DNA of 40,482 bases from a virus. The stretch's first letter is position 1, and every line of letters starts with the position of its first letter. Below, one piece after another: positions 6,491 to 36,119 of the stretch. The stretch covers positions 1 through 40,482 of the IMG/VR virus record IMGVR_UViG_3300025303_000097. The stretch is one strand, 5' to 3'. The notes under the pieces are model-generated. The model was not told the origin of the DNA, made no database searches, and saw nothing but the letters and a program-made list of their open reading frames with translations. The translations under genes were made by a program, and so were the position numbers.

Positions 6491-7273
6491 TCAGTCTTCA
6501 ACAACGGGAGCCTCGCCGACCGCAGTCGCAGCGTCAACCTTTGCGATCTCGGCCCGGCCCTTCGCGATTGCCGCTTTTTTCTCTGCAGCGATTTTCTTAA
6601 CTGCCGCCAACCTTTGCTCCCGCTTGTGTCGTGCGACATACCATTCGTCGAATAGCATCTCAATCAGTTCTATCAGCGCTTGGGCTTCACCAGGATCGAC
6701 ATCAACAATGAGGTTGATGTCCTTTTCCATATGCGCACCGATGTTCCCGATGTCACGCACCGCGTCGATCGCTTCAACAGTCTCCGGTTCCACGCCGCGA
6801 GGCGCGCTTCCGTCATCAAGTCGCTTATTTAGTTCCTTGATTTCATCTATCAGACGGCTCTTGGCAATGCCGCAAAAGTCTCGGATCATACCCTGAAGAC
6901 AGCGTCGCGCCAGCGTCGCCGAAGCTTTCGGGCTGGTAGTACGTATCGCACACGCTTCCAGATAATCCTCACGAAGCGCAGCTGGGATGTATTCAGGCTG
7001 CGATTTGGAGGAGCTGCTCGGGCGAAGTTGCCAGCTTTGAAGGCCTTTTTCTATCGCCCACACACCGTTGGGGCGAGCGAAAGCCTTAACAAACCGAACT
7101 GACAAATCGACTTCGTTGCAATCAGGGTTGACGCAACGGATCGCAGTATAAGCCATACCGGTGTCGCCGTGAGTCGACTTGCCAATGTTAAATTTCATGA
7201 ACGATGACTGATAATTGCCTTCAGTGAACAGCTGGTGATGGTCGCAAAATGGGCATGTCCACTGTTCGGCCAT
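6491..7273 (-). CDS. DUF4145 domain protein with zinc-ribbon N-terminus
   Basis: A 260-residue protein with AGGAG eight bases before the ATG. Residues 6-52 hold two Cys pairs (CPFC and CVNPDC) that look like a zinc ribbon. The middle (LEACAIRTTSPKASATLARR, then IGNIGAHMEKD and a final helix LIELIEMLFDEWY) is the DUF4145 signature. The C-terminal 45 residues form a charged Lys/Ala/Glu helix, probably a coiled coil. DUF4145 domains are found in some restriction and defence proteins and in many stand-alone prophage proteins; their biochemical role is not established. It is a single-gene unit. Confidence 0.85.
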   Translation of the reverse strand: MAEQWTCPFCDHHQLFTEGNYQSSFMKFNIGKSTHGDTGMAYTAIRCVNPDCNEVDLSVRFVKAFARPNGVWAIEKGLQSWQLRPSSSSKSQPEYIPAALREDYLEACAIRTTSPKASATLARRCLQGMIRDFCGIAKSRLIDEIKELNKRLDDGSAPRGVEPETVEAIDAVRDIGNIGAHMEKDINLIVDVDPGEAQALIELIEMLFDEWYVARHKREQRLAAVKKIAAEKKAAIAKGRAEIAKVDAATAVGEAPVVED

Positions 7274-10049: not shown

Positions 10050-10082
10050 AAAAAAACGCCCTCCCCGGCTAAGGAGAGGGCG
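10050..10082 (-). terminator. Strong intrinsic terminator ending the structural operon
   Basis: On the minus strand the stem CGCCCTC/GAGGGCG (10082-10076 with 10063-10057) is followed by seven T (complement of 10050-10056). It lies nine bases after the stop of the last structural gene and separates it from the convergent plus-strand operon. Confidence 0.85.
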
Positions 10083-10091
10083 CTTGGGAGA

Positions 10092-12641
10092 TCATGCCAC
10101 CTGCGGCAAGTATGGATGGTTGACGTAGCTCGCCAGGATCTTCGCCCGGAGTGTCGGATAATCGACATCCTGAACGTTGATGTTTCCGTCGATCGCCATC
10201 GAGGCCATGTAGCCGGCCGCCGTGCCCTTCAGGGCGCCGGTCAACTCCAGGCGCGCCATGTACCAGCAAAGGATGGTGCACGAAGACGCCCACGGCACGA
10301 TGACATTGGTCTTCACCGCGGCATCTGGCACAATTTCCTCAAGAGGAATGGGCGCCATTTTATCGACGCCCGCCACGAGCGAGCCCGGGACGCTGCCCTG
10401 CGTGTAAAGCAGTCCGCCAGACGCGACCTTCCATGGCGGGTGCTTGTCGCAGTCGTAGGAGGTGACAGCCACCGTCTTGTCAGACCGGAGGGCCGAACCA
10501 TCCGTCTTGCAGTAGTCCTGCGCCGTGGAAACATACCCGGTGTTCTTGAGCCGCCAGATCGGGTCACGCTGATACGGGCGGTTAGGCCAGAAGAGCAAGC
10601 CGCCAGGGCCCGGGTCGAGGAAGTTGTGCGCATCGAGGCCGAACGCCTGGAACTGCGTTACCAACGTGGATGGGATACGGCTGTCGCCTGAATTCGCATG
10701 CCACCAGAACCAGCCGAGCTGATAATCCCGAAGGTCGTCGATGACCGCCTGACGCCCAGCCTGGTTTGCGGCGGTCGCGTACCGGTAACCGCTGCCGGGT
10801 AGGTCGGTGGAGAGACCGCCCGACCCGTTGTTGACATCCATCTTGTCGGTCGTGCCACCGACTGCGAACTGCAGAATGGTCTGTGTGTTCGCCGGGTTGC
10901 CGATCGTGACACTCGGGTTGAGGACATATGCGCGCGCCGCCGTCTCGTAGCGGAGGGAATTGTAATTGCGGTGAGGGTCGATCGTGGTGACTGGCACTTT
11001 GCGTGCCGGATCGTTCGTCATCGCCAGACGGTAGTTCATGCTCTGGATTGACGGATCGGGGCCATTCAAAGTGAGACCAGGAAGTGGCATTTCGCCTTGA
11101 ATATCCGGGAGCAGGCCGGATGCAGGATTGCCAGCCACTACGTAGGGATCGATATCCGAGTTGTAAGGCTTGCTGAGCGCACTCGATCCCTTGTAGCCGT
11201 TGTTCGCTTCTGACCCTGCGCCGGCCGCTTCGCCGCCAGTGATCGTCGGAATTCCGGGAGACATGTGGATATATTCGCCATCGTAGTCGCCCGCGATGAA
11301 CTGCTTGGCCGTGAATGTCCTGCCGTCGTTGGTGATGACCGCGGTGTCCCTGGTCCCGACCGCCGTGATGGACGCAATGCCGGTCGAGAAATAAACCGGG
11401 ATATCCAGCCCCAGAAGAAGCGTTCCGTTCGTCCGCGTCGGGTCGAGGCATCGCCGCACGCCGGAAACGAATTGCCAGCATTCAACTGAGTTGCCCGTTT
11501 GCGTGTTCGTGTCGACCCGATTGATGATCGTGCTGTTCACCCACGAGGTAAGGTCGCGGTAGAACCCTTTGCAGGCAGTGAACGCATAGCTGTCGATATA
11601 GGCCAGCCCGTTCGTCGGCATGCCGCCGATATCCCAATCGGTTTTCGCGAGCGCATCGAGGAGGATGCCGACCGTCTTGCCCTCCTCCTTAAGCCCCCTC
11701 GCAGTCGCGATCGACGCGGGACCGGCGCCGTAAACGAGGGCATCAAAGTCTACCGTCGTCGGCGCTTTCCCGGCCTCGTAGTAATCGACCATGCCGAAGC
11801 GGATCTTCAGATAGTAATCCAGAAGCGCCGCGCTGATCTCCATGCACTGCGCATCGTTCAGTCTGACGTCGAAGATGGCGAACAGGCCGCAATCGTGCGC
11901 CGATACCGCCCCGCCGTTGATGCCACCAAGGTGAATGGTCGGATTGGTGGCTGGCGCGACGTAAGTTACGCTCGGCACCTCCCGGGTAATCCCGAGCGTG
12001 TCGAGGCTGTTCGGCCGGATGCTGTACATGCCTTGGCCGGGCGTTATGTTCGTCGCCACCGACGCGTAGTTCGTGGCCTGCAGACGCGCGTTGAACTTAT
12101 TGGATGCGTCCCTCGTATTCGCCCCGATGCCATCGCCACCGGCCGTCTGCGCTCCAAAGTCGCCACCCGCCGCGCCGGTCGCGGTGCGGGAATAATAGAA
12201 GATTGTAAACTGGCCCTGCGCGAAGGACTGAAGGCCGATCCCGGTGTTGTATTTCGTGGTCGAGCTCCACCCGCTCCACCGGTCGTTTGCCGTATAGGTT
12301 GGCGTGCCAGCGCCAGTTAGCGTCAGATCGTTCGTGCCTGGGTGGAATTTGTTGACGCGGCTGTTGATCTCGGTCGGGGTATCGGGAGAGTAGAGAGCCT
12401 TGGCGTTCGTCATGCTCACGCCGGCACCCTTGATGCGCGTGATCAGACGATCGAACGTTAGCTTCTGTCGCCGCGACATCGGGATGCCGGCCGCGGTCTT
12501 TGATGCGTTGAGGGTGTCGGTTTCAGCCTGAAATACGATGTCGGGCAGCGAGACGCTGGCGCCTCCAGGGAGGCGCCCAGCAACGCTATACCTACCGAAC
12601 GGCGAGAACGGTGAACTTAGAAACGTACCGCCCTCAAGCAC
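10092..12641 (-). CDS. Phage structural domain fused to FAD-dependent oxidoreductase
   Basis: An 849-residue protein, last gene of the late operon. GTG 12641 overlaps the stop of the preceding gene; the open frame beyond it is only that gene read in another frame. Residues about 50-285 resemble the concanavalin-like tail proteins of rhizobial phages (KLTFDRLITRIKGAGV; FAIFDVRLNDAQCMEISAALL). Residues about 297-849 match PF12831-type FAD-dependent oxidoreductases: Rossmann motif VYGAGPAS (303-310), GGMPTNG (339-345), AKQFIAGDYDGEYIHMSPGI (the AKxFIDATYEGDLM element), YRLAMTNDPARKVP, a ...DYQLGWFWW... helix, and a C-terminal GTAAGYMA...VQDVDYPTLRAKIL. The third Gly of the dinucleotide motif is Ser. 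There is no signal peptide, so it would reach the outside as part of the virion. An FAD enzyme in a tail operon is unusual. Confidence 0.85.
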   Translation of the reverse strand: MLEGGTFLSSPFSPFGRYSVAGRLPGGASVSLPDIVFQAETDTLNASKTAAGIPMSRRQKLTFDRLITRIKGAGVSMTNAKALYSPDTPTEINSRVNKFHPGTNDLTLTGAGTPTYTANDRWSGWSSTTKYNTGIGLQSFAQGQFTIFYYSRTATGAAGGDFGAQTAGGDGIGANTRDASNKFNARLQATNYASVATNITPGQGMYSIRPNSLDTLGITREVPSVTYVAPATNPTIHLGGINGGAVSAHDCGLFAIFDVRLNDAQCMEISAALLDYYLKIRFGMVDYYEAGKAPTTVDFDALVYGAGPASIATARGLKEEGKTVGILLDALAKTDWDIGGMPTNGLAYIDSYAFTACKGFYRDLTSWVNSTIINRVDTNTQTGNSVECWQFVSGVRRCLDPTRTNGTLLLGLDIPVYFSTGIASITAVGTRDTAVITNDGRTFTAKQFIAGDYDGEYIHMSPGIPTITGGEAAGAGSEANNGYKGSSALSKPYNSDIDPYVVAGNPASGLLPDIQGEMPLPGLTLNGPDPSIQSMNYRLAMTNDPARKVPVTTIDPHRNYNSLRYETAARAYVLNPSVTIGNPANTQTILQFAVGGTTDKMDVNNGSGGLSTDLPGSGYRYATAANQAGRQAVIDDLRDYQLGWFWWHANSGDSRIPSTLVTQFQAFGLDAHNFLDPGPGGLLFWPNRPYQRDPIWRLKNTGYVSTAQDYCKTDGSALRSDKTVAVTSYDCDKHPPWKVASGGLLYTQGSVPGSLVAGVDKMAPIPLEEIVPDAAVKTNVIVPWASSCTILCWYMARLELTGALKGTAAGYMASMAIDGNINVQDVDYPTLRAKILASYVNHPYLPQVA

Positions 12642-12897
12642 TGAAAACACCGCACGTTTCGCCAGCCACACGAGTAAAGCGGTATGTCCCGGGAGCGGTA
12701 ATCGCAATCGCAGGACGGAAAGGCGTGAGTTCGCCAATGTCGGTGTAGCCGCCGGCGTCGTCTTTGAGAGTGATGCGCACCCGAGCTTGAGAGGTCGTAG
12801 TGCCCTTGATGCCGACCAGCACGGTAGAGCCAGAGGCAACGACAAGGTCAGAGGAATTGGCCGCGGTGGAGCCCACCGCGAGAAGTTCTGCAGCCAT
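12634..12897 (-). CDS. Small beta-rich virion-associated protein
   Basis: An 87-residue protein with AGGAAA seven bases before the ATG. It reads as one beta-sandwich-like domain (DLVVASGSTVLVGIKG, ARVRITLKDDAGGYTDIGEL, PGTYRFTRVAGETCGVF). Similar short proteins lie beside fibre genes in rhizobial phages and may be decoration or adhesion modules. Its stop codon overlaps the start of the oxidoreductase-fusion gene, so the two should be made together and may assemble together. Confidence 0.75.
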   Translation of the reverse strand: MAAELLAVGSTAANSSDLVVASGSTVLVGIKGTTTSQARVRITLKDDAGGYTDIGELTPFRPAIAITAPGTYRFTRVAGETCGVFSA

Positions 12898-25014: not shown

Positions 25015-25491
25015 GTGCAGCTGCTGTGCAAGGAGTGCGGACACTACAAACCAGAAAATCAGGTGCAGCTCGGAACTTGCGATGACTGCTTCAAATATGG
25101 AGCTCCCAGGCAAGCAAAGCCTGCGACGGAAACTGATGAACGCAGAACTGTCCCTGCGGTCATTCTGACGACGTCGATTGATGTTCCAAACCGCAAGGTA
25201 GAGAGCGTGGTATCGATCGTCGCAGCAGAGGCGGCGCTCGGAATGAACATCTTCAGAGATATAGCCAACAATTGGCGTGACTTCGTCGGCGGCAGGGCTA
25301 ACTCTGCGCAGAAATCATTGCGCGAGGCCCGCCTAGCTTGCCTCGACGAACTCAAGCGGGAAGCGGCCGCGGTCGGCGCCGATGCCGTGATCGCAGTCGA
25401 TTTGGACTATAATGAGCTCTCGACGTCCGGCAGTGGCGGCATCCTATTCGTGGCGGCAAGCGGCACCGCCGTTAAGCTGGCGCCGATCTAA
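25015..25491 (+). CDS. YbjQ-family (heavy-metal-binding-like) protein, moron
   Basis: A 158-residue protein from GTG 25015, with AGGGAGAG just upstream. Residues 5-25 (CKECGHYKPEN ... CDDC) form a zinc ribbon. Residues about 48-157 match the YbjQ/DUF74 fold: TTSIDVPNRKVESVVSIVAA, SLREARLACLDELKREAAAV, GADAVIAVDLDYNELSTSGS, and a closing strand FVAASGTAVKL. YbjQ proteins form pentamers; their role is uncertain. The gene is antisense inside the late tail operon and has its own promoter, so it can be expressed in the lysogen. This is the classical moron situation. Confidence 0.87.
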   Translation: MQLLCKECGHYKPENQVQLGTCDDCFKYGAPRQAKPATETDERRTVPAVILTTSIDVPNRKVESVVSIVAAEAALGMNIFRDIANNWRDFVGGRANSAQKSLREARLACLDELKREAAAVGADAVIAVDLDYNELSTSGSGGILFVAASGTAVKLAPI

Positions 25492-35384: not shown

Positions 35385-35432
35385 TGGAAAGGTTTTAGAC
35401 TTAAGGTCCCGAATATTTTGCAGGGGTACGTG

Positions 35433-36119
35433 ATGGCCTTAAGTCAATTCCAGATAATCAAATCGTTAGGGGAAGCGCTTGCGTGGTTCGAGCGCGAGCT
35501 TGCGTGGGGTGTTCCAGCGTCGGAACTTAATCACCTCACCGGTCGTATCGGTGAGCTCTACACAGCTATGTTCACTTACGGGCAAATGGCGCCCGAGTCG
35601 AAGCAGCGTGGTTATGACGTGGTGAGCGCGGACGGACAGAAGATCTCTGTAAAGACAGTGACTTCTTCGACCCAAGTATCGTTCAACGAAAACACATTCA
35701 GCGATGTCGATCGTGTCGTGGTCCTCAGGATCAACGCTAAAGAGCTGGCAATCGAGATATTGATGGATCTGCCGGCATCAGAAGCCCGAGACAGCATGCG
35801 GACACGCGCAGGAAAGCTCGTGTTTCCGACCTACAAGTCGCCAACGCAAGCCGATCACCTTCCTCTTAGCAATCTCCAGATCACCAAGATGGCCAATGCC
35901 GGCCAAGTTCAAATTCGCCAATACGAGAACGGAACTGTCGAAGTTTTGAGGGATGGTCACTTGATCGCACCCGCACTACCGCTTCTCCGCGAGCTGTCGA
36001 TGGAGCTCGGCATTGATCATCTTAATAGCACAGGGACGCCGAAGAACACCCGTCACCTAGGCGATCAGATCATCCGCGAACTGCTTGCGCGGCAGCAAGA
36101 GACATCGCAAGACGAATAG
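35433..36119 (+). CDS. DUF6998-like protein with restriction-endonuclease-like motif
   Basis: A 228-residue protein from MALSQFQIIK, AGGGG seven bases upstream. Residues about 35-100 resemble DUF6998: HLTGRIGELYTAMFTYG, then GYDVVSADGQKISVKTVT, then VDRVVVLRINAK. The E-x..D-x..Q-x-K-like order (Glu in GRIGE, Asp in GYDV, Lys in SVKT) is that of PD-(D/E)XK nuclease folds, although assignment by eye is tentative. The C-terminus is helical (PLLRELSMELGI; LGDQIIRELLARQQE). It is monocistronic, on the strand opposite to the late operon, and closed by the terminator at 36182-36206, so it looks like a lysogen-expressed moron. Confidence 0.75.
   Translation: MALSQFQIIKSLGEALAWFERELAWGVPASELNHLTGRIGELYTAMFTYGQMAPESKQRGYDVVSADGQKISVKTVTSSTQVSFNENTFSDVDRVVVLRINAKELAIEILMDLPASEARDSMRTRAGKLVFPTYKSPTQADHLPLSNLQITKMANAGQVQIRQYENGTVEVLRDGHLIAPALPLLRELSMELGIDHLNSTGTPKNTRHLGDQIIRELLARQQETSQDE

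Follow-up and report, generated by a model that had tools for sequence, protein, structure and literature searches.

A gene at the end of a phage late operon appears to join a phage structural module to a flavin-dependent oxidoreductase domain, which raises the question of what a redox enzyme would do in such a protein. The gene lies in a virus record of 40,482 bases, the whole of which was analysed and is called the window below. To our knowledge, the surface enzymes carried on the virions of tailed phages belong to the hydrolases, lyases and esterases. A sequence-only reading of the window had proposed a virion-borne redox enzyme, fused to a phage tail protein and perhaps acting on host surface glycans.

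Position of the gene and features of its product

The open frame at 10092-12641 has been confirmed with exactly these coordinates and is located on the minus strand (Table 1). Its start overlaps the stop codon of the upstream 87-aa gene by 8 bases (GTGCTTGA), and as the GTG start and this overlap are kept in 11 related loci, the assigned start codon is supported. The genes for the tail tip protein J, a fibre, an endolysin and a spanin precede the fusion gene, and a 13-pair terminator (10085-10054) closes the operon, which bears out the earlier placement of this gene as the last of the late operon. All peptides quoted from the translation in that reading have been found: VYGAGPAS (residues 303-310), GGMPTNG (339-345), AKQFIAGDYDGEYIHMSPGI, YRLAMTNDPARKVP and VQDVDYPTLRAKIL.

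Table 1. Coordinates of the fusion gene, its parts and its neighbours in the window
Feature	Coordinates	Strand	Description	Basis
LamG-PF12831 fusion gene	10092..12641	minus (12641-10092)	GTG start, 849 aa	ORF and Pfam
87-aa gene	12634..12897	minus	small, probably beta-rich protein (PHROG 34273); constant part of the cassette	translational overlap with the fusion gene
Intrinsic terminator closing the late operon	10054..10085	minus	13 pairs, 8 G-C, T tail	
N-terminal anchor, residues 1-31 (MLEGGTFLSSPFSPFGRYSVAGR...)	12549..12641	minus	low model confidence; common to phages with other payloads	
LamG/ConA-like phage module, residues ~32-285	11787..12548	minus		structure model, Foldseek, PHROG matches of relatives
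PF12831 FAD-oxidoreductase domain, residues 298-849	10095..11750	minus		Pfam, structure models, Foldseek
Dinucleotide-binding motif GAGPAS, residues 305-310	11712..11729	minus		sequence comparison
GGMPTNGL, residues 339-346	11604..11627	minus	GM..GL part invariant	aligned phage and cellular members
SYDCDKH, residues 728-734	10440..10460	minus	no variation at D732 or H734 in phage and cellular members	

Domain composition and predicted fold

Pfam analysis of the window protein revealed one family, PF12831 (FAD_oxidored), at residues 300-834, with 77.6 bits (E=1.5e-21) over positions 1-415 of the 416-position profile. The curated Pfam cut-off for this family is 27 bits; the match is far beyond chance, and the assignment made earlier from motifs in the C-terminal half is confirmed over the full-length profile. 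An SGNH domain is absent from the window protein, in which Pfam finds only PF12831. The PHROGs search gave no match to the protein, and its N-terminal part has no match of its own in Pfam or PHROGs; matches to PHROG 26223/18498 in the LamG region come from distant family members.

The AlphaFold2 model of the window protein, calculated from a 51-row alignment of this protein and its relatives, has a mean pLDDT of 86.1 and a pTM of 0.89, with pLDDT below 50 only at residues 1-27 and in one short loop. In a Foldseek comparison the model of the N-terminal half is closest to phage proteins, e.g. “YapH” of Sinorhizobium phage phiN3 (rmsd 2.5 over 252 columns), and also matches other Rhizobium phage proteins and the ConA-fold domains of AbnA and trans-sialidases. 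The ConA-like jelly-roll fold is seen in the model and the kinship with phage LamG proteins in tblastn with the relative L026; the concanavalin-like phage structural N-terminus suspected from the letters is therefore upheld.

The FAD half folded alone gave a pLDDT of 85.7, and the best 50 PDB matches listed for this isolated model are all FAD-type flavoproteins (best E 2.9e-7), including fumarate reductase, urocanate reductase, ketosteroid dehydrogenase, monooxygenases and MnmG. As the TM-scores are modest, these matches support the fold class and not one particular enzyme. The models thus predict an FAD-type Rossmann flavoprotein fold, in agreement with the sequence-only reading. PDB sequence searches revealed no close relative of the PF12831 domain with a solved structure from which FAD could be positioned, and no named NCBI function was found for the PF12831 relatives considered here.

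Recurrence of the fusion in other phages

Searches with the FAD half revealed the same LamG and PF12831 architecture in about 22 IMG/VR contigs, and the fusion was also found in the isolated Rhizobium phages RHph_N3_19, RHph_Y55 and RHph_I72 (GenBank MN988527, MN988500, MN988554; PF12831 scores of 152-203 bits) and in a Paracoccus methylarcula genome. Because of this recurrence the fusion is not an assembly error; a chimeric assembly or a chance frame, refuted by many independent contigs, three complete isolate genomes and low dN/dS, has a negligible probability. Among 298 Rhizobiaceae genomes, a fusion-type frame (840 aa) was detected only in the already-seen prophage of Pararhizobium antarcticum, the other matches being read as stand-alone cellular PF12831 members. 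The fusion is uncommon.

The fusion is present in siphophage-, N4-like and myophage-type genomes. In window-like phages the gene closes the late operon, behind the endolysin and spanins; elsewhere it lies close to an N4-like RNA polymerase gene in L009 (PHROG 2051, 536 bits) and to genes for head maturation proteases in L029 and L132, and is flanked by portal and capsid genes in Y55 and I72 and by terminase and portal in N3_19. The presence of one module across such different phage types would be typical of parts engaged in host interaction. The earlier label “tail protein” is likely for the window phage but may not extend to N3_19, Y55 and I72, where the gene stands among head and packaging genes. 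The FAD half of these three isolates is 28-29% identical to that of the window protein and closer to the cellular members.

The claim that such a protein had not been described stands in part. The literature searched, largely open-access papers, yielded no description of such a fusion, and the papers found discuss no function for the gene of N3_19, Y55 and I72, but two of these three Rhizobium phage genes carry the GenBank label “FAD dependent oxidoreductase”. The “FAD-dependent oxidoreductase” of phiM9-like phages (PMC10783043) was rejected as a further case, being absent from tblastn results with PF12831 queries. Just upstream of the Paracoccus fusion gene, a DarB-like antirestriction protein is encoded (L034:1651-4923; PHROG 10089, 888 bits), which suggests a large prophage or a plasmid-like phage.

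A cassette with exchangeable payloads

A survey with the upstream 87-aa gene as probe revealed homologues in eight loci (L169, L170, L172, L173, L175, L177, L178, L179), each followed by a payload gene of a non-FAD type that starts at the same overlapping GTG. Most of these eight payload proteins start with the anchor of the window protein, MLx..LFxPLFSPIGRYSxSGR, which L177-L179 match poorly. The payload is SGNH/GDSL-like in 6/8 cassettes, L175 and L177 being without assignment: L170, L178 and L179 match PHROG 8480 “lysophospholipase L1-like esterase” (332, 100 and 55 bits, respectively), and L169, L172 and L173 have GDSL lipase model matches below the Pfam cut-off (24-27 bits vs 32.9). New here, beside the spread over phage types above and the sister group and second recruitment described below, is that the fusion gene sits in a payload-swapping cassette, in which the small upstream gene stays constant and the anchor mostly does as well. 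In the window virus, one of soil rhizobia-like bacteria, the fusion sits where relatives carry esterases of a putatively sugar-deacetylating type.

Sequence comparison indicates that a modular anchor and an enzymatic-type payload are exchanged between phages, and the anchors themselves are shuffled. The anchor MAGLK/RxSLRRGxSL is common to L004/L006 and L032, and MLGLS.GI.NQ to L003 and L031, despite their distant FAD domains, and close FAD-fusion relatives can differ in anchor. In L009, cadherin-like repeats stand ahead of the rest of the protein.

PHROG 26223 covers both the SGNH-type protein of L178 (profile 27-365) and the LamG region of the FAD proteins (profile 532-770); as the two matches fall on separate stretches of the profile, one phage protein family joins SGNH and LamG. 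The length of this profile, 775, equals that of gp308 (“putative YapH”) of phage phiN3, which, like its phiM12 relatives, carries the same LamG module at the C-terminus, lacks the FAD domain and probably has an SGNH-like part in its place, as deduced from PHROG 26223. A module of the same LamG type occurs in gp20 of Klebsiella phage KPP5665-2 (L137:5698-9360), which has no Pfam match and whose gene adjoins a tail-tip-like gene near a DNA invertase.

Conservation of the FAD half

The dN/dS of the FAD half is 0.03-0.11, equal to or lower than that of the LamG half in most pairs. These values indicate strong purifying selection on the FAD half and rule out its decay. The residues G305, G340, M341, G345, L346, D350, G469, R538, N604, Y690, R692, D732, H734 and P772 are invariant in 51 sequences. 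Of 131 columns with at least 90% conservation among 46 cellular members, the window protein retains 65 and the other phage members 95. In the window clade an Asp, an Arg and the His of the SxSH motif, which is present in 100% of the cellular members, have been replaced; this His is also missing from a stand-alone phage protein at L133, described below, and kept in most other phage members. Because of these replacements and the lower number of retained columns, activity appears less secure for the window protein than for members of the N3_19/Y55 type.

Two other deviations do not read as decay. The position of GAGPAS is occupied by GASWTA in most close relatives and by GGTxxG/A in the cellular members, which themselves deviate from GxGxxG, and the loss of that pattern was accordingly rejected as the sign of a dead enzyme. 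The acid that ends the second beta strand usually binds the ribose. The phage clade lacks it at this position, the window clade having an Asp one residue further on, and as it is also absent in the twin-arginine sister group described below, its lack is an ancestral trait and not decay; it counts nonetheless among the points against the flavoenzyme reading proposed below.

Origin of the FAD domain

In the tree of FAD domains the phage LamG fusions form one clade (99/99), whose sister, at 100/100, consists of three Rhizobiaceae PF12831 proteins with twin-arginine-type (Tat) leaders, e.g. MRFNLGRRVFVAGA and INRRHFIAGSA, as read from the sequence. When long branches are removed, the fusion clade and its Tat sister group both persist, each at 100/99. 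N3_19 is 40-42% identical to the Tat-leader Rhizobiaceae proteins and ~35% to members from Bacteroidota and Verrucomicrobiota. The nearest known proteins, the Tat-signal proteins of Rhizobiaceae (L145, L147, L148), possess the full domain, the invariant Y-x-R and D-x-H motifs seen in the phage proteins, and the GGWRDRHxGGM-type motif common to most phage relatives; unlike the window clade, they have the SxSH His. The cellular relatives stand alone with an export signal, whereas the phage proteins lack such a signal and are fused to LamG and an anchor.

Proteins that fold around a cofactor while still in the cytoplasm are usually exported through the Tat pathway. Since the sister proteins appear to be Tat-exported, the ancestor of the phage FAD domain is likely to have acted outside the cytoplasm. 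The gene neighbours of the Tat sisters were considered as a guide to the substrate and set aside as too weak, just one hexapeptide acyltransferase gene being common to two genomes. Tat-leader PF12831 proteins of Rhizobiaceae are encoded at L160:7465-9237, L161:7070-8827 and L162:7155-8927, and one Rhizobiaceae genome contains three tandem PF12831 genes (L165; G015:C24:72207-77256).

A different prophage encodes a 528-aa stand-alone PF12831 protein (L133:6989-8569; also L167), located directly after the tail-tip gene and a 657-aa gene and followed by a fibre gene (PHROG 4201 tail fibre). This protein falls outside the clade of LamG fusions, which suggests a second, separate recruitment of PF12831 by phages; its exact place in the tree is unsure because of its long branch. 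A Sec-signal PF12831 protein beside a P2-like prophage (L163) was rejected as a third acquisition, as the downstream neighbours are chromosomal, as seen in L166.

Proposed function and alternative explanations

The best reading of these data is a virion-anchored flavoenzyme acting on the host surface, the redox counterpart of phage deacetylase fibres, to which we assign a probability of roughly 0.5. The short N-terminal anchor, probably together with the co-translated 87-aa protein, would tie the enzyme to the particle, and the LamG/ConA module would position it on the host glycan layer. The PF12831 domain, taken from a Tat-exported rhizobial enzyme or sharing an ancestor with it, would oxidise or reduce a sugar of the envelope polysaccharide. 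Its action would resemble that of SGNH deacetylase tail fibres, whose enzyme type fills the same slot in related phages, with redox chemistry in place of hydrolysis. Given the exchange with SGNH/GDSL-type esterases, the FAD domain is most simply read as an alternative surface-acting payload. Carriage in the virion and action on host glycans find indirect support in the payload swap, the spread over phage types and the exported sister family, and a virion-borne surface enzyme appears better supported than at first, above all by the swap. Virion carriage, flavin binding, catalysis and a glycan substrate are all putative.

Fibre-borne esterases offer a close functional parallel, and on phage fibres SGNH domains are well documented as deacetylases of polysaccharides. 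Gp66 of Pectobacterium phage Possum, an SGNH protein, O-deacetylates the host O-polysaccharide (PMC9569702), and the SGNH fibres (RBPs) of Klebsiella prophages are active esterases, with gp63.1 of phage G7C as a precedent (PMC13123978). In these systems an enzyme payload is likewise carried on a modular fibre; they are hydrolases that remove acetyl groups, whereas the window protein has a predicted flavin redox fold.

The main rival, unlikely but to be taken seriously because the window clade lacks the family-invariant His, is that the flavoprotein fold has been reused as a non-catalytic, lectin-like receptor-binding domain of the virion, which binds a sugar and performs no chemistry. It would account for the loss of this His (SSCTILCWY vs SxSHIAYGS), of D450 and of R470, for the long stem branch to the window clade (1.5-1.6 changes per column) and for the parallel lack of the SxSH His in L133. 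A mere binder is harder to reconcile with the retention of GGM..GL, D350, Y690, R692, D732, H734, R797 and E799, with the His kept in most other phage members, and with an FAD half constrained at least as strongly as the LamG half in most pairs, where fast-changing receptor-binding tips usually show the reverse.

Two further explanations are improbable. A virion-borne oxidase or dehydrogenase might act on a target other than polysaccharide (e.g. a quinone or a small envelope molecule), or produce H2O2 at the cell surface; the fold does group with a large mixed set of enzymes (fumarate reductase, ketosteroid dehydrogenase, monooxygenases), but both the LamG module and the exchange with esterases of the SGNH type speak for glycans. 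Slightly less probable still is an auxiliary or lysogenic-conversion gene whose non-structural product acts inside the cell, as the gene's place at the operon's end, downstream of the endolysin and spanins, could suggest. Against this stand the fusion to a phage structural module and an anchor, the location among head and tail genes in other phages, the export of the sister proteins, and the lack of a promoter-like site of its own on the minus strand.

Returning to the virion-anchored surface enzyme, its more general form is somewhat more tentative: a fibre-borne flavin oxidoreductase that oxidises sugars of the host envelope, forming a redox class beside the depolymerases (hydrolases and lyases) and deacetylases, with two or more recruitments and exchange through a common fibre cassette. 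If correct, a flavin redox payload in the slot of SGNH-type esterases would add a chemical class to host-surface attack, and suggests that some phages may alter the host surface by a redox reaction. The fusion would also offer direct experimental access to the PF12831 family, and with three Rhizobium phages in isolation it can already be tested.

Other genes of the window

A gene of the YbjQ family (PF01906) at 25015-25491 (+), which lies upstream of the tape-measure gene and runs opposite to the late operon, is a possible moron. A DUF6998 (PF22522) protein, perhaps restriction- or defence-like, is encoded at 35418-36119 (+) adjoining the packaging genes, and a DUF4145 gene at 6491-7273 (-) lies outside the late operon.
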